IMG/VR virus record: IMGVR_UViG_3300047379_001338
Span: 1-27,728 of that record
Length of the DNA stretch: 27,728 nucleotides
Reading direction: 5' to 3' (one strand)
From: a virus
Under the pieces are notes generated by a model. That model saw only the letters and a program-made list of their open reading frames with translations, ran no database searches and was not told where the DNA came from. Position numbers and translations under genes: made by a program. Numbering within the stretch: position 1 is the first letter of the stretch; each line of letters opens with the position of its first letter. Of the stretch, positions 1,237-6,901 are shown piece by piece.

Positions 1237-2250
1237 ATGGAAACTAAAACAGGAGAATTATTAACCGAGAACATTGCTGGAGTAAATAGAATTTTACCTC
1301 ACAAGCATAAATATGCGTGGGACTTATTTTTAAAAAGTTGTGCGAATAACTGGATGCCTACTGAAATCAGTATGCAAAACGATATTAAACAATGGAAAAA
1401 CGATGAAATCACAGAAGATGAAAAATTACTCGTTAAACGCTGCCTTGGATTCTTTGCGGGATCTGAGTCTTTGGTTGGCAATAACCTTCTTCTTTCGGCT
1501 TTTAGATTTATTACTGACGCTGAGTGTCGTCAGTACATTCTTCGCCAAGCTTTTGAAGAAAGTCTTCACAATCTTACGGTAGTATATGTGTGCGATAGTC
1601 TTGATCTAAATATAGAAGAAGTTTTTGCTGCATACGAAACGATTCCAAGTATTAAGGCTAAAGACGATTTCTTAATGGAAATCACTAACGATATTAGCCG
1701 CCAAGACTTTAATGCTCATACCACAGAAGGAAAACAAGAAATTTTAAGAAACTTTTTAACTTATTGGATTGTGTGTGAAGGCACTTTTTTCTTCAGCGGC
1801 TTTGCAATGCTCTTGGCTTTAGGAAGGCAGAATAAACTACAAGGAATTTCTGATCAAATCAAGTATACTTTGAGAGATGAAAGCTCACATATTGCTTTCG
1901 GAACTTACTTAATTAATACATTAATAGATCAAAATCCAGAAATTTGGACTCAGGAAATTCAAGATGAATTTGTGGATCATATGAAAAAAGCTGTTGAGCT
2001 TGAAATAGCTTATGCCCACGATGTGCTGCCGACAGGAATACTGGGTTTAAACGCTGATATGTTTGTTGATTATATGCATTACATTGGTAATCGCAGATTA
2101 GAAGGTATAGGTCTTAATTACCGTTTTCCTAGCGACAAAAACCCTTTCCCTTGGCTTAGTGAGGTGGTTGATGTACAAGCTATGGGCAATTTCTTTGAGA
2201 GAAGAGTTAGGGAATATCAACAAAGCGGATCTCTAGAAGACGATTTTTAG
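1237..2250 (+). CDS. nrdB: Ribonucleotide reductase small subunit, class Ic-like (R2)
   Basis: The beta subunit of class I ribonucleotide reductase, which supplies the radical that NrdA uses to make deoxyribonucleotides, a common way for phages to feed DNA synthesis. At 337 residues it is full length. The predicted metal ligands are E77, E108, H111, E181, E215 and H218, in GSESLV, EESLH, CEGTFFF and RDESSH. The spacing (31, 3, 70, 34, 3) equals that of Chlamydia trachomatis R2. The first ligand is Glu instead of Asp, and the residue four after H111, where ordinary R2 carries the radical Tyr, is V115. Both are hallmarks of class Ic enzymes, which use a Mn/Fe centre instead of a tyrosyl radical. 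The tail ends EDDF, as expected for docking to the large subunit. No nrdA is in the window. It starts at the first ATG after the promoter. Confidence 0.95.
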   Translation: METKTGELLTENIAGVNRILPHKHKYAWDLFLKSCANNWMPTEISMQNDIKQWKNDEITEDEKLLVKRCLGFFAGSESLVGNNLLLSAFRFITDAECRQYILRQAFEESLHNLTVVYVCDSLDLNIEEVFAAYETIPSIKAKDDFLMEITNDISRQDFNAHTTEGKQEILRNFLTYWIVCEGTFFFSGFAMLLALGRQNKLQGISDQIKYTLRDESSHIAFGTYLINTLIDQNPEIWTQEIQDEFVDHMKKAVELEIAYAHDVLPTGILGLNADMFVDYMHYIGNRRLEGIGLNYRFPSDKNPFPWLSEVVDVQAMGNFFERRVREYQQSGSLEDDF

Positions 2251-2277: not shown

Positions 2278-2302
2278 AAGCCCCCGAATGGGGGCTTTTT
2301 TT
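2278..2302 (+). terminator. Intrinsic terminator after nrdB
   Basis: An 8-bp GC-rich stem, AAGCCCCC (2278-2285) with GGGGGCTT (2290-2297) around a GAAT loop, runs into a T tract to 2302. It lies 28 nt after the nrdB stop and touches the stop of the convergent gene at 2301. There is no T tract on the other strand, so it mainly serves the + strand. Confidence 0.9.
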
Positions 2303-3584
2303 ATGCTAAGATATCTAGTAAAGGCTCTCCTTTGTGCGCTATTGTAAACGGTCTTCCTGATGGGGAATATTGGTAATCATTTAGAGGTAAACCTAAAGTA
2401 TGAGCGATAGTTGCATTCAAGTCTTCTGGTTTAATTGGTTTACCTTCTGTAGGAGATCTTCCTGTTTTGTCAGTTTCACCGTAAGTTGTGCCGCCTTTGA
2501 TTCCGCCTCCTGCAAGAAATGCAGTAAAGCAATAAGGCCAATGATCTCTTCCATCTCTACCATTAATATTCGGGGTTCTTCCAAATTCAGAGGTTAACAC
2601 CACTAAGGTCTCTGAAAGAAGGCCTCTTCTATTCAAATCAAAAAGTAATCCGCTTAAAGCCTGATCTATGTCTGCGCAATTCGCTGCTACCCTATCAAAG
2701 TTATTATCATGTGTATCCCATCCTCCTCGCGTTACTTCGACATATCTTACGCCGTTTTCAACTAACCTTCTTGCTAATAAACAACCTTTTCCGAAATTAG
2801 TTTGACCGTAAAGTTCGCCTGTCGCTTGCGACTCTTTAGTAATATCAAAAGCGTTTAAATCATCACTATTCATCAATTTAACTGCATCTTTATATAAGTC
2901 TGAATAAGCTCTAACTTGTTTTTGAGGGAATTGAGTAGAAAAATTTTCATTTAATGCCTCTGCGATAGATATTCTGCTTTGAAAATGCTCATGATCTAGA
3001 TATGATGCCATTTTACTATTAGATAATCCTGCGGATGGATTATTGATTGGTAGGGCGCCATATTTAGATTCTAAAAATCCTGCTCCACCTCCTCCTCCTC
3101 CAATTTTAATATTGGATGGAATGGTTCTATTTATTGGACCTCCAAGTTTAGAAACCCAACTGCCAAATGTTGGGTGTACAATAGTCCCTCTTTTGAGGTA
3201 ACTGGTATGCATAAGATAACTCGCTTGTTCGTGAGCTCCCTGACTAGTATTCATGGTTTTAATAATTGCGCCATGATGCATAAACTGTGCGGTTTTCGGT
3301 AAATTTTCTGATAAAATCACTCCGTCTGCACTAGTTGGAATAGATTTTGTCGGTCCCTGAATATCTGGCGCATCAGGCTTTGGACCAAAAGTATCAAGAT
3401 GAGACATAGCTCCTGACATATTTAAATATATAACGTGTCTAGCTGTTGGTATTCTAGATGCAGGCTCAAGAGCGCTAACATTGTTATGTATATAAGCTCC
3501 GGCCATAGGCATTAAGCCTACTCCGAAGCACGCTTTTGCGGCATACGCAATAAATTCTCTTCTTCCTAATTCATCTACTTTCAT
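2301..3584 (-). CDS. DUF1501 family exported protein (Tat signal)
   Basis: A 427-residue protein of the DUF1501 family, an alkaline-phosphatase/sulfatase-fold-like group abundant in Planctomycetes, Verrucomicrobia and Lentisphaerae, with no proven reaction. It begins with a twin-arginine signal: RREFI at residues 8-12, then a hydrophobic stretch to about residue 30, implying folded export. Family-typical segments include YLNMSGAMSHLDTFGPKPD, GGWDTHDNNF, TSEFGRTPNINGRDGRDHWP and a Gly-rich loop (IGGGGGGAGF). The length is complete and no frame is broken. It lies 21 nt after the PSCyt2/PSD1-type gene with no promoter or Shine-Dalgarno between them, so they are probably cotranscribed. The same pairing is common in PVC chromosomes. 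Finding it in a phage is unusual. Confidence 0.92.
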   Translation of the reverse strand: MKVDELGRREFIAYAAKACFGVGLMPMAGAYIHNNVSALEPASRIPTARHVIYLNMSGAMSHLDTFGPKPDAPDIQGPTKSIPTSADGVILSENLPKTAQFMHHGAIIKTMNTSQGAHEQASYLMHTSYLKRGTIVHPTFGSWVSKLGGPINRTIPSNIKIGGGGGGAGFLESKYGALPINNPSAGLSNSKMASYLDHEHFQSRISIAEALNENFSTQFPQKQVRAYSDLYKDAVKLMNSDDLNAFDITKESQATGELYGQTNFGKGCLLARRLVENGVRYVEVTRGGWDTHDNNFDRVAANCADIDQALSGLLFDLNRRGLLSETLVVLTSEFGRTPNINGRDGRDHWPYCFTAFLAGGGIKGGTTYGETDKTGRSPTEGKPIKPEDLNATIAHTLGLPLNDYQYSPSGRPFTIAHKGEPLLDILA

Positions 3585-3605
3585 AATTTTATTTGGTTTT
3601 AGTTT

Positions 3606-5876
3606 TTATTTTATAAATATAAATTCGTGTGTGTTTATTAAAGTCCAGATTATTTCTTTATATACCTCTTTCTTGTCTTTTAATGACGATTTAAATAATG
3701 ATATTTCTTTTGAGGATGGATTTCTATTTAAAATATATCTAAATCCAACTTTAATTTTATCATCTAGAGATTTTTGAGATTGCACTGCTTTAATAATTTC
3801 AAAGTTTTTATTTTTTAATAACCTTGTTTCTACAAAACCGTTAAGCAAATTGAGCACCTGGGTTGCAGAGGCGCTTTTGTTTGAGTTTTCGATCTGTTCC
3901 CTATCTGAACCACCAAACTCACGAATAAGGTGTCCTACGGGAGCAGGAGAGGATAATTCAGAAGCTCTTACGGAATTACGATCTTTTACAAAGTTTTGTT
4001 TGTAATCGTCTTTCTTCGTTTGTTGCTGGGATTTAAATTTATCAACACAAGATTCGCAGCAAAATGCAACCGTCTCTCCGTTTTCATTAAGAGCTAATAA
4101 AGTTGGATCAATAGCTCTGCCTGGTTTAATTGGGCAATCTGTATTTATTGGTTCTGTGAATTTTGGTTTATTTGCTGTTTTTGGCCTTTCGGTTTTATTT
4201 ATTTTGGCCATAAGATCTTGAAATAATTCTTCACCAGTCATTGCCGAAAAGTTTTGGAAGTCTTCGTAGCCCTTTATGTTTTGCTGAAGTTTTCTAGAAT
4301 CTATATCGTTAAACGTTAAATTTACTAATGAATCCCAGACTTGTTCGCCACTCATTCTTTCAAGCATTGGCCCTTGATAAAAATATGGAATCGCGTTGTG
4401 AGATTGTTTTTCGGTATTTGGTCCTGCGATAATCCATTTTACATCTACAGGCATAGATTGATCTTTATTATCTTTTGGGATGACATCTCTTATTACAGAT
4501 TGACGCTGAAAAGTTTTTGTGTTGTATAAAACCCTCAGAAACTCTTTTAAATCGTAATCTAAAGCTACCATAACTTTTTCCAAATGTAGCTGAAGTTTTG
4601 GATCTGTAGCTAATGTATCATCAAACATGTTATCAATTGGCTCAATTAAAGCTAGTCCAAAAACTTCTTTCCATAACCTATTTACAATAACAGCTGTAAA
4701 TCTAGGATTTGAATCTGTTGCAAGCCAATTTGCATAAATTTCTCTAGAACCCGCTTGAGGAGCTTTTGTTTTAATATCAATTTCTTTTCCGAAAATTGTT
4801 TTTCCAGATAACATTTCGCTCGGCTTTGCATTATCATATTGATAGTCATTTGGTAAATTAATTTTTCCTGAACCTAAACTATCTAATCCTGTCTGTAAAA
4901 TATCTTGAATAGATCTAGAATCGTTTCTTAACTGTCTTGATTTTTGAGTTTCTCCTGCTTGCTCTAGCCTTCTTTGTTCTGTATTAACCAATCTATTAAA
5001 TTGACCTAAATTATCAACACCTCTTCTTCTGAGGTTTGTTGAACCGCTTGTAAAAGCAGCCATTTCGTAGAATTGTTTTTGTGTCCAGCGATCAAATGGG
5101 TGATCATGGCACTGGGCGCATTCGAGGCTAGTCCCAAGAAAGATGCGAACTGTATTGGCCATATTGTCGAGAGGCATGTTTACATCTCGCGCAAAATAAC
5201 TAACTCCTTCATTTCCTCTTTCCCATAGTGGACCTGATGATGAAAGCATTTCTCTAACCCAAACATCATATGGTCTATTATTTGATATAAATTCTTTTAC
5301 ATAATTTTTATATGGTATACCTGATACTCTATTATTTAATCTATCTTTCATTCTTAGTATATCTGCCCAGAAGTTGAACCAATGACTTACATATCCTTCA
5401 CTGCCTAATAATTGATCTACTAATTTTGACCTTTTATTTTTGTCTTTACTATTTAAAAAAGCATCTACTTCTGTTAAGGATGGAGTTCTGCCAATAATTT
5501 TTAAATATGATCTGCGTAAAAATGTAGCATCATTAACTTCTTTGTTTGGTCTAAGATTATATGATCTTAATTTTGTTTCGATTAAACTATCAATATACTT
5601 AGCGTGAGTATTTAAATCATTATCTGATAGTGGTTTTTTAAATTTAGGCAAAGCTTCGTGGCTTGGCGGAAAGTTGTTTTTGATATAAGCTTGATTATCT
5701 TCTGTAAGAGAATCTATTGCTATTCTAAATAACTGCAAATCACTTGCTCTTTTTATTAGCGCATGAGTAGCATTTGCTTCAAGAATATCTCCTTTTAAAT
5801 CTTTTCCGTTATTAAAGTATAATGTATCTGCGAAGCAATAAATTGATGATATTAATAATAAAAGTAGTTTTCTCAT
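3606..5876 (-). CDS. PSCyt2 (DUF1549)-PSD1 (DUF1553) exported protein
   Basis: A 756-residue multidomain protein of planctomycete/verrucomicrobial type. In order: a Sec signal peptide (residues 1-16, MRKLLLLLISSIYCFA); a short beta domain like SHD1 (about 17-70, LYFNNGKDLKGDILEANA); a DUF1549 domain (about 88-285) with the c-type haem motif CAQCH at 253-257; a DUF1553 domain (from about 375, SREIYANWLATDSNPRFTA, with NRLWKEVFG, to the end). Inside the DUF1553 part, residues 580-613 form a YHS/TRASH-like metal site: C581-P-I, then FCCESC with C606, C607 and C610. The biochemical role of these families is not established; export and haem attachment are inferred. It is the first gene of a two-gene unit with the DUF1501 gene. 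The start is the ATG 5 nt after a TATAAT box. Confidence 0.9.
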   Translation of the reverse strand: MRKLLLLLISSIYCFADTLYFNNGKDLKGDILEANATHALIKRASDLQLFRIAIDSLTEDNQAYIKNNFPPSHEALPKFKKPLSDNDLNTHAKYIDSLIETKLRSYNLRPNKEVNDATFLRRSYLKIIGRTPSLTEVDAFLNSKDKNKRSKLVDQLLGSEGYVSHWFNFWADILRMKDRLNNRVSGIPYKNYVKEFISNNRPYDVWVREMLSSSGPLWERGNEGVSYFARDVNMPLDNMANTVRIFLGTSLECAQCHDHPFDRWTQKQFYEMAAFTSGSTNLRRRGVDNLGQFNRLVNTEQRRLEQAGETQKSRQLRNDSRSIQDILQTGLDSLGSGKINLPNDYQYDNAKPSEMLSGKTIFGKEIDIKTKAPQAGSREIYANWLATDSNPRFTAVIVNRLWKEVFGLALIEPIDNMFDDTLATDPKLQLHLEKVMVALDYDLKEFLRVLYNTKTFQRQSVIRDVIPKDNKDQSMPVDVKWIIAGPNTEKQSHNAIPYFYQGPMLERMSGEQVWDSLVNLTFNDIDSRKLQQNIKGYEDFQNFSAMTGEELFQDLMAKINKTERPKTANKPKFTEPINTDCPIKPGRAIDPTLLALNENGETVAFCCESCVDKFKSQQQTKKDDYKQNFVKDRNSVRASELSSPAPVGHLIREFGGSDREQIENSNKSASATQVLNLLNGFVETRLLKNKNFEIIKAVQSQKSLDDKIKVGFRYILNRNPSSKEISLFKSSLKDKKEVYKEIIWTLINTHEFIFIK

Positions 5877-5881
5877 AATAG

Positions 5882-5887
5882 ATTATA
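5882..5887 (-). promoter_or_regulatory. -10 box of the DUF1549-DUF1501 unit
   Basis: On the minus strand a perfect TATAAT (5887 to 5882) stands 5 nt before the ATG at 5876, which would make the message leaderless. There is no good -35 box at 17 nt; TTGTGT lies 19 nt upstream, directly against the terminator of the preceding operon. Confidence 0.55.
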
Positions 5888-5910
5888 TTGTTTAATATAT
5901 ATTATTACAC

Positions 5911-5937
5911 AAAAAAGCCACCCATTTCTGGGTGGCT
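5911..5937 (-). terminator. Intrinsic terminator after the barrel/small-membrane genes
   Basis: A perfect 9-bp stem, AGCCACCCA (5916-5924) with TGGGTGGCT (5929-5937) around a 4-nt loop, is followed on the minus strand by six T. It lies 23 nt beyond the stop at 5961. It isolates the Hsp20/barrel/small-membrane genes from the DUF1549 gene, which starts 35 nt further on. Confidence 0.92.
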
Positions 5938-5960: not shown

Positions 5961-6203
5961 CTAACCGCCTTGTCCTTCTTTTTGCTTGAAAAGCGCAACG
6001 ATAAGTAAAAGAGTGATAATTCCCGCTAAGGAAGCTCCTTCTCCTACGAATCCTGTGACAACATCCTGAAGGTTGCCGATAACATTAATGGGTGCTCCTG
6101 CGCCAAATACGACTTGGGCGACAACGAGCAATCCGATAATAGAGAGCAGGACACTTGTAACTCCTCCTGCATAATTTTTGATTGTATCTATTGTATTTTT
6201 CAT
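5961..6203 (-). CDS. Small two-helix membrane protein
   Basis: An 80-residue protein beginning MKNTIDTIKNYAGG. It has two hydrophobic helices, about residues 15-36 and 57-72, joined by a loop with GNLQDVVTG, and ends in a polar KQKEGQGG tail. An upstream in-frame start at 6251 would overlap the barrel gene; the chosen ATG follows that gene's stop by 7 nt and shares the TTTAATTATGAAAA start context of the barrel gene. Size and topology fit a holin, a pilin-like or virion membrane protein, or a small partner of the outer-membrane barrel. None can be chosen from sequence alone. No Shine-Dalgarno. It is last in its operon, right before the terminator. Confidence 0.8.
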   Translation of the reverse strand: MKNTIDTIKNYAGGVTSVLLSIIGLLVVAQVVFGAGAPINVIGNLQDVVTGFVGEGASLAGIITLLLIVALFKQKEGQGG

Positions 6204-6210
6204 AATTAAA

Positions 6211-6861
6211 TTAGAAAGAGAATGTAAGGCCAGCAGATAGCAAATCTTCACTATCGATCGAGTCAGAATCTACATAAGCGTAACCAATGGACGCCTCAAC
6301 TGAATCCGAAAGACTCTTGGATACTGAAGTCTCTAATGTATAGTAATCATTATCTTCAATACCATACCTATCTGAATTACCTAAAGATCCAGCTAGAGTA
6401 AGAGATGCAAAGTTAAGGTTAAAAGAATGAGATGCTCCACCTTCAAATACATAATTATTATCACTTGTATCTCTGAGAATTAAGAAGTATGGGGATAAAT
6501 GATAATCGAGCCCTACTCTGATTACTGCATCAAGCTGACTTGCGCCATCAATAATTTCTTCGTGTTGAAGCCCTACATATACATCAAGAAGTTCTCCGAG
6601 TTGCTTAGAGACTCCTCCAGAGAAAACATAAAGGCTCTGGCCATTAGAAAGCTCATCGACAGTTGATACTGAACCTTCTGCGCTAAAATTTCCGACTTCT
6701 GCGCTATAGGACACTGCAGCAGATAAGCTTTCATCTGCAAGAATAGATCCTTGGTTGAATGCGTCTGTCCCGTAACCTAAGGATACTGAGCCAGATCCAG
6801 CATGGATCGCGTTAATAAAAGAAGCCGTAATGGCACTGATTGTAATTAATAGTTTTTTCAT
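6211..6861 (-). CDS. Outer-membrane beta-barrel-like protein
   Basis: A 216-residue protein with a Sec signal peptide (MKKLLITISAITASFINAIHA, cleavage near residue 21), then alternating polar/hydrophobic strands separated by acidic loops. It ends SAGLTFSF; a C-terminal Phe preceded by alternating hydrophobic residues is the classic signal for insertion of barrels into the outer membrane. Repeated segments such as LYVFSGGVSKQLGELLDVYVGLQ and VEASIGYAYVDSDS suit 8-12 strands. I do not recognise a specific porin family. The start is set at the ATG at 6861: a longer frame would begin at 6882, inside the promoter. A phage-made barrel could change the host surface, for example to exclude other phages, as known for the porin of E. 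coli phage PA-2; here that is only inference. Confidence 0.8.
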   Translation of the reverse strand: MKKLLITISAITASFINAIHAGSGSVSLGYGTDAFNQGSILADESLSAAVSYSAEVGNFSAEGSVSTVDELSNGQSLYVFSGGVSKQLGELLDVYVGLQHEEIIDGASQLDAVIRVGLDYHLSPYFLILRDTSDNNYVFEGGASHSFNLNFASLTLAGSLGNSDRYGIEDNDYYTLETSVSKSLSDSVEASIGYAYVDSDSIDSEDLLSAGLTFSF

Positions 6862-6873
6862 AATTAAAGTAGG

Positions 6874-6901
6874 ATTATACATTATTTATAATTAATGTCA
6901 A
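6874..6901 (-). promoter_or_regulatory. Sigma70-like promoter of the barrel gene
   Basis: On the minus strand a perfect TTGACA (6901 to 6896), a 16-nt spacer and a perfect TATAAT (6879 to 6874), 12 nt before the ATG at 6861. This is the best promoter in the window. The -35 box contains the TGA stop of the Hsp20 gene. The leader would be about 5-6 nt, too short for a Shine-Dalgarno sequence. A strong promoter suits a highly made surface protein. Confidence 0.85.

Follow-up and report, generated by a model that had tools for sequence, protein, structure and literature searches.

A DUF1501 and PSCyt2/PSD1 gene pair as probable host-derived cargo of large uncultivated phages

The two genes and their leaders

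The DNA analysed here, termed the window, comprises the 27,728 bases of one IMG/VR virus record, in which two neighbouring minus-strand genes encode a DUF1501 protein and a protein that joins PSCyt2 and PSD1 domains (DUF1549 and DUF1553). Both open reading frames (ORFs) are uninterrupted, at 2301-3584(-) and 3606-5876(-), and are separated by 21 bases. The DUF1501 protein (427 aa) matches Pfam PF07394 along the whole profile (1-390 of 390; E 3.3e-107, 359 bits, cut-off 27). Its partner (756 aa) matches PSCyt2 (PF07583; E 7e-45, 154 bits, gathering score 29.8) followed by PSD1 (PF07587; E 7e-25, 88 bits, gathering score 28.5). An original prediction for this DNA had described two intact frames of these families with Tat and Sec signals, and both the full Pfam matches and the leader motifs agree with it.

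The DUF1501 protein begins with a predicted twin-arginine translocation (Tat) signal region (3495-3584(-)), and its leader, GRREFIAYAAKACFGVGLM, contains the twin Arg at residues 8-9. This motif is kept in 43/43 relatives and is aligned in 75 of 76 phage sequences. The partner starts with MRKLLLLLISSIYCFAD, a Sec-type leader by inspection, and has an SHD1-like N-terminus. It carries a single CAQCH motif at residues 253-257 (5106-5120(-)), a predicted c-type haem attachment site of the CxxCH kind found in exported c-type cytochromes. A Cys cluster, C-x24-CC-x2-C, at residues 581-610 (4047-4136(-)) resembles by inspection the TRASH/YHS-like metal-binding type.

Carriage by uncultivated phages

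The neighbours of the pair in the window encode NrdB, UvsX, a DnaB-type helicase, a primase-like protein, a PD-(D/E)XK nuclease, an HNH protein, Hsp20 and a GDP-mannose dehydratase (GMD), and the flanking UvsX, helicase, primase-like and NrdB genes confirm that the pair lies between phage genes. When IMG/VR was scanned with the DUF1501 protein, 36 further contigs of up to 206 kb were obtained at 62-98% identity, the partner protein gave 23 contigs, and a profile scan found 228 contigs encoding DUF1501. Two contigs (L002 and L004) repeat the window order GMD-DUF5824-HNH-Hsp20-outer-membrane protein (OMP)-small membrane protein-PSCyt2-DUF1501-nrdB. Others place the pair in different phage blocks, so that several genomic positions are occupied in all. 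Contigs of 194-206 kb are among those carrying these genes, and besides NrdA and a terminase the 203-kb record G006 encodes a tape-measure protein of 2,940 aa, the ATPase of an ATP-dependent protease and a transfer-messenger RNA (tmRNA).

As the genes are clearly bacterial in origin, chimeric assembly or host contamination of the viral contigs had to be considered. The probability of this is negligible and it was rejected for the group, since the synteny is common to many contigs: the 36 further contigs come from many samples and have the same phage genes on either side, the phage sequences make their own clades with a GC content below that of the host, and in the record G285 the pair is embedded among T4-like replication genes. 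For the window itself, the order nrdB-pair-OMP-Hsp20-HNH-GMD recurs in independent assemblies, and a chimeric join, which the prediction had named as one of its risks, is thus discarded. The pair is almost certainly host-derived phage cargo. Being of host origin, not needed for basic phage functions and under selection, it has the attributes of a moron or auxiliary gene.

Neither protein of the window matched any of the 50,697 GenBank phage records in INPHARED, and a query from the second lineage described below gave there one weak partial match only (E 7e-3). No paper was found that describes phages with the pair, and for DUF1501 in phages the literature gave just one weak match, in a 61-aa Pseudomonas phage ORF, which was judged irrelevant. 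The claim that no described phage carries the pair is therefore upheld for GenBank phages and for the literature found. The related question of whether such genes are routine in unrelated phages has a divided answer, as at least two unrelated uncultivated lineages carry them and none of the GenBank phages does.

DUF1501 occurs without PSCyt2 in many records, including G025, G028 and G029 (121-206 kb), and the prediction of a fixed two-gene unit had to be abandoned. Since IMG/VR contigs are mostly fragments, PSCyt2 can be firmly called missing only from the longest records, and even these are not known to be complete. DUF1501 being so often without its partner, it is probably the part that the phage needs, that is, the selected core, with PSCyt2 as an accessory.

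The second lineage is T4-like. In one group of contigs (L318-L343) PSCyt2 and DUF1501 are again adjacent, the DUF1501 protein being 40-43% identical, and no backbone gene of the window lineage is found near the pair. Three members of the group, namely G284 (225 kb), G285 (184.5 kb) and G286 (171 kb), encode T4-like terminases. The G285 pair (PSCyt2 of 595 aa, Pfam E 2e-35 and 1e-26; DUF1501 of 411 aa, E 5e-98) sits among UvsX, gp41-like helicase, single-stranded DNA-binding protein and primase genes, and sheath, clamp loader and terminase genes are found elsewhere in the record. The best relatives of this pair in Verrucomicrobiota are just 46-49% identical, which suggests that the capture is old or had a different source. 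A second DUF1501 is present in both G284 and G285.

Origin in one Opitutales operon

The closest cellular relatives in a genome scan were found in metagenome-assembled genomes (MAGs) and single-cell genomes of marine Opitutales (Verrucomicrobiota), at 74-81% identity. An origin in the Planctomycetes-Verrucomicrobia-Chlamydiae (PVC) group had been predicted, and it can now be narrowed to one specific operon of this order. Although errors in MAG binning are possible, the host operon nonetheless recurs in many assemblies and in single-cell genomes. It consists of PSCyt2/PSD1 (about 840-890 aa), DUF1501 (432 aa) and a PSCyt1 protein with leucine-rich repeats (LRRs), and is often followed by a SufS-like aminotransferase, an opposite-strand sulfatase and a glyoxalase-type protein. 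The first two genes of this PSCyt2-DUF1501-PSCyt1/LRR order are present in the phages and the third is not: no PSCyt1 (PF07635) match was obtained in 30 phage records, in a search in which no control genome gave a match either, although a separate search did recover the domain from host proteins. PSCyt2 and DUF1501 are 29-61 bases apart in Opitutales and 1-59 in phages. The gap is about 400 bases where an opposite-strand ORF of 128 aa is inserted, as in several phages (L005:9546-9932 and equivalents). The product of this ORF has a leader and a CDWC motif, with no match in Pfam, NCBIfam or PADLOC.

Each of the 17 Opitutales genomes compared has 6-55 DUF1501 genes. In all 17 exactly one of these shares 64-81% identity with the phage protein, and the next paralog reaches at most 53%. 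Relatives of the captured ortholog, together with the same partner gene, exist in Verrucomicrobiaceae and Planctomycetota.

This ancestry makes it quite probable that phages of the window lineage infect Opitutales. Some points speak against such an assignment: it follows from gene ancestry only; a search of 223 genomes of the order, run with no positive control, did not recover the phage terminase; and the phage tmRNA is unlike that of Opitutales in tag and body, matching at the 3' end only, so that it is not diagnostic of the host.

Repeated capture by phages

In a maximum-likelihood tree of 64 DUF1501 sequences the phage proteins form four clades split by Opitutales branches, and a single phage clade appears in 0% of bootstraps. 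The approximately unbiased (AU) test rejects one phage clade (p 1.65e-47), as well as the union of groups I and II (p 2.7e-63) and that of I and III (p 0.008), although these p values are indicative because the groups were named after inspection of the tree. A single ancient capture was therefore ruled out by this test. In the PSCyt2 tree the phages take three placements, and a broader, quickly built tree (151 sequences) requires seven changes, of which at least six are forced by strongly supported branches. These topologies imply at least four captures within the Opitutales clade and at least six overall, in place of the single acquisition originally supposed. The single host ortholog noted above is the source of phage clades I, II and III alike. 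Different paralogs were used in other captures, namely the second copy in L055 and the type found in L256, L257, L262 and L263, which are 33-35% identical to the main type.

These divergent copies have neighbours of their own. A membrane-anchored protein with TSP3 repeats (654/652 aa) follows DUF1501 directly in L256 (8715-10679) and is also present in L257 (3372-5330), where a small leader-bearing protein with a heavy-metal-associated (HMA) domain (5323-5646) lies between the two. A similar-looking membrane-anchored ORF, with no Pfam match, stands by the second DUF1501 of L055 (13331-14980). In the 107-kb viral record G272 (L257:10875-13966) a FadB-like gene and a thiolase gene are adjacent, which can represent unusual cargo or a join. 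FadB is an enoyl-CoA hydratase/3-hydroxyacyl-CoA dehydrogenase.

Selection and trimming

Between phage copies dN/dS is 0.02-0.07 for both genes, with many dS values near saturation; for the window against L049, dS is 0.36 and dN/dS 0.03. The phage PSCyt2 proteins are 756, 714, 680 or about 580-595 aa long, against 840-890 aa in close hosts. Of the Cys-cluster domains of the host protein, clade I retains one, and clade II and the L059 type none, and no phage clade retains its PSCyt1 insert. All full PSCyt2 ORFs examined, from the host and from both phage lineages, retain CxxCH.

These data bear on whether the genes merely entered by transduction-like errors and persist without any benefit. The accessory distribution would fit such passive hitchhiking, DUF1501 being missing from 11 of 16 related records, most of them fragments. 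Nevertheless the low dN/dS at near-saturated dS, the six or more independent captures and the choice of the same ortholog among 6-55 make it a very improbable explanation.

Fold and predicted function

The AlphaFold2 models have a pLDDT of 87 for DUF1501 and 86 for PSCyt2/PSD1. When the DUF1501 model was compared with the PDB by Foldseek, the top matches were sulfatases, LtaS-type proteins and YejM (best E 6e-8, TM about 0.4), and the weak PDB sequence matches of the DUF1501 profile were nearly all to sulfatases. Residues D290, H292, D307, R336, R346 and H348 are invariant across 76 phage and 75 cellular sequences. D290-x-H292 (2709-2717(-)) contains putative metal ligands, and R346-D347-H348 (2541-2549(-)) putative active-site or metal residues, of which R and H are the invariant ones. 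By its modelled fold and the invariant D290, H292, R346 and H348, DUF1501 is assigned to the alkaline-phosphatase/sulfatase superfamily, with these residues as candidate ligands.

No convincing solved relative was found for the PSCyt2/PSD1 fold (best Foldseek E 0.14). The middle of its model resembles phycobilisome linker domains and its N-terminus the Sla1 SHD1 domain, at E 0.14-0.33, a candidate fold relationship that stays below significance. An identity as anti-phage defence or counter-defence was rejected, as neither DUF1501 nor PSCyt2 had a PADLOC match at E 0.1.

Possible role during infection

The DUF1501 modules of PVC bacteria have export signals and lack biochemical characterisation (PMC4452313), and Kamneva et al. 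2012, as cited in that paper, dealt with DUF1501 genomic clusters of these bacteria. DUF1501/DUF1800 genes co-occur with chitin synthase in Proteobacteria (PMC5122149), and PSCyt genes, whose function is not known, adjoin sulfatases in Verrucomicrobia (PMC5615132). These links, together with the extracytoplasmic action of some superfamily enzymes on glycan and lipid esters, favour a role on the envelope or its glycans.

On this view phages took over the PSCyt2-DUF1501 segment of a single conserved host operon several times, the captured unit being trimmed of the third gene and of extra metal and haem domains. The pair would then be expressed in infection to maintain or boost the host function. 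DUF1501 may cross the membrane by Tat, folded and metal-loaded, and PSCyt2 by Sec, its haem being loaded by the c-type maturation system of the host. PSCyt2 could serve as an electron-carrying or structural partner, and the pair, or DUF1501 alone, would work in the periplasm or at the envelope. Host-envelope glycans or glycolipids that carry ester substituents would be the likeliest substrate class. Such a substrate would lead to envelope remodelling (superinfection exclusion, shielding) or to nutrient release. A module with this role in large tailed phages of marine Opitutales is the best explanation overall, which we hold with slightly better than even confidence. That modification of the envelope or its glycans is itself the benefit to the phage is a tentative suggestion, somewhat short of an even chance. 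Repeated pick-up by large marine phages combined with strong selection points to an unrecognised phage route to altering the host envelope or its chemistry.

Several points count against this proposal. The formylglycine motif C/S-x-P-S-R, as read from the sequence, is absent from the window DUF1501, so that the protein is not a classical sulfatase, and that identity was rejected. No conserved Ser/Thr nucleophile is evident either, residue 114 being S, N, T or K, and with both lacking, hydrolysis by DUF1501 is unproven. Its Tat export is predicted by motif only, the sugar genes nearby, GMD among them, occur widely in phages and give weak guilt by association, and to our knowledge no reaction has been established for any member of the DUF1501 family.

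The same genes could instead form a nutrient or redox module, in which periplasmic oxidation or breakdown of (sulfated) oligosaccharides would feed carbon and electrons to replication with PSCyt2 as redox partner. The retained haem motif would suit this, as would the sulfatase that follows the host operon, the PSCyt1 cytochrome included in that operon, and the tracking of carbohydrate use by Verrucomicrobia PSCyt genes near sulfatases (PMC5615132). It is nevertheless unlikely, as phages omit the PSCyt1 partner and many keep DUF1501 without PSCyt2. Moreover the captured ortholog, single-copy in each tested host genome and with Verrucomicrobiaceae and Planctomycetota relatives next to the same partner gene, looks housekeeping and not substrate-specific. 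Still less probable is that the exported pair mainly alters a surface structure for phage adsorption, like lysogenic-conversion morons, for superinfection exclusion or receptor masking. Recurrent gain, the use of other DUF1501 paralogs and a variable position would fit arms-race cargo, and the pair is a putative transcription unit of its own beside an outer-membrane barrel and GMD, but very strong purifying selection, and not diversification, was found.

Relation to known systems

In planctomycetes and verrucomicrobia, DUF1501 and PSCyt genes form a hallmark expansion. The phage pair shares with the PVC clusters the same families, the PSCyt2/PSD1-then-DUF1501 adjacency, the export leaders and orthology to the conserved Opitutales operon, but the PSCyt1+LRR gene is missing from it, and its PSCyt2 is without the PSCyt1 insert and either one or all Cys-cluster domains. 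With the auxiliary genes and morons of marine T4-like phages (for example psbA, nrd and Hsp20) it has in common host derivation, its own terminator-like hairpin and putative promoter, purifying selection and repeated acquisition. Here, in contrast, the cargo is a predicted exported cytochrome paired with a member of the alkaline-phosphatase superfamily, a pair that no GenBank phage record matches. Sulfatases, LtaS/LtaP and YejM/PbgA resemble DUF1501 in fold (Foldseek E 6e-8 and weaker), in Asp/His metal-type residues and in extracytoplasmic action; however, identity is about 10-14%, TM about 0.4, and DUF1501 has its own Pfam family. The DUF1501/DUF1800 pairs beside chitin synthases (PMC5122149) are likewise two-gene units with a Tat motif on DUF1501, although the partner is DUF1800 and the carriers are Proteobacteria and not phages. 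The 'DUF1501 domain-containing protein' A0A6J5M742 (UniProt/BFVD) of an uncultured Caudovirales phage is also on phage sequence, but it has 489 aa and 14% identity, is known from database annotation only, and has no pair reported.

Within the familiar category of auxiliary metabolic genes and morons, the pair makes up a new class of host-derived cargo. Whether DUF1501 represents a general PVC envelope-modifying enzyme class, recruited repeatedly and independently by unrelated large phages, those of the window lineage and T4-like myoviruses, as an infection factor of importance in nature, is in our view evenly balanced. If true, this would be a new widespread viral auxiliary function in Verrucomicrobiota and Planctomycetota, and the minimal working set of a PVC hallmark system would be DUF1501, optionally with a one-haem PSCyt2. 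The phages can be regarded as natural selection experiments in which one ortholog was chosen among 6-55 paralogs per host and then trimmed. Their choice singles out this ortholog for study and indicates that DUF1501 can be kept without PSCyt2, PSCyt1 or the third operon gene. Gene ancestry also connects marine Opitutales, for which few phages are known, with large uncultivated phages, and isolate-based phage gene catalogues overlook a gene class present in more than 200 uncultivated viral contigs.

Neighbouring features and further observations

The phage gene nrdB (1237-2250(+)) is convergent with DUF1501, and an intrinsic-terminator-like hairpin of 8 stem pairs lies between them (2278-2297(+)). 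On the other side a terminator-like hairpin of 9 stem pairs (5916-5937(-)), kept in relatives, ends the upstream small-membrane-protein/OMP unit, in keeping with the prediction of a terminator on each side. The promoter region of the pair (5877-5915(-)) is weak in the window itself, where 15 promoter-like sites were found against 14.9 expected by chance, so that the -10 box of the prediction is not distinguishable from chance there. In the three nearest relatives the same intergenic stretch has TTGACA and a -10-like element directly 3' of the same terminator.

Upstream lie a small membrane protein of 80 aa with two helices (5961-6203(-)), a neighbour kept in relatives and up to 96% conserved, and a fast-evolving outer-membrane beta-barrel-like protein (6211-6882(-); Porin_4 E 2.6e-5, below the cut-off). 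They recur together in most close relatives and could form a surface or lysis module.

Phage-encoded tmRNAs (Rfam RF00023, 103-130 bits) were found at L029:9597-9993, L030:9630-9993, L025:9626-9993, L032:9540-9973 and L072:6699-7062, and the tag given by ARAGORN for G006 is GNKNRVKAFGLKAKKLALAA. In the DUF1501-only group the start codon of DUF1501 is 7-27 bases past the 3' CCA of the tmRNA, and in L045, L310 and L313 the PSCyt2-DUF1501 pair stands just past a tmRNA, a site that may be an insertion hot spot. Genes for ClpA/C-like ATP-dependent protease ATPases (L072:59-1036, L032:7046-9496) are also carried, and in some records they immediately precede the tmRNA and DUF1501. A manA cis-regulatory RNA (Rfam RF01745, 77 bits) is present on a phage contig (L032:18711-18911). 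In the 222-kb record G292 PSCyt2 and DUF1501 are 7.5 kb apart, and near them (L354:18160-18945) are ORFs that by eye are likely sulfotransferase and glycosyltransferase-like.

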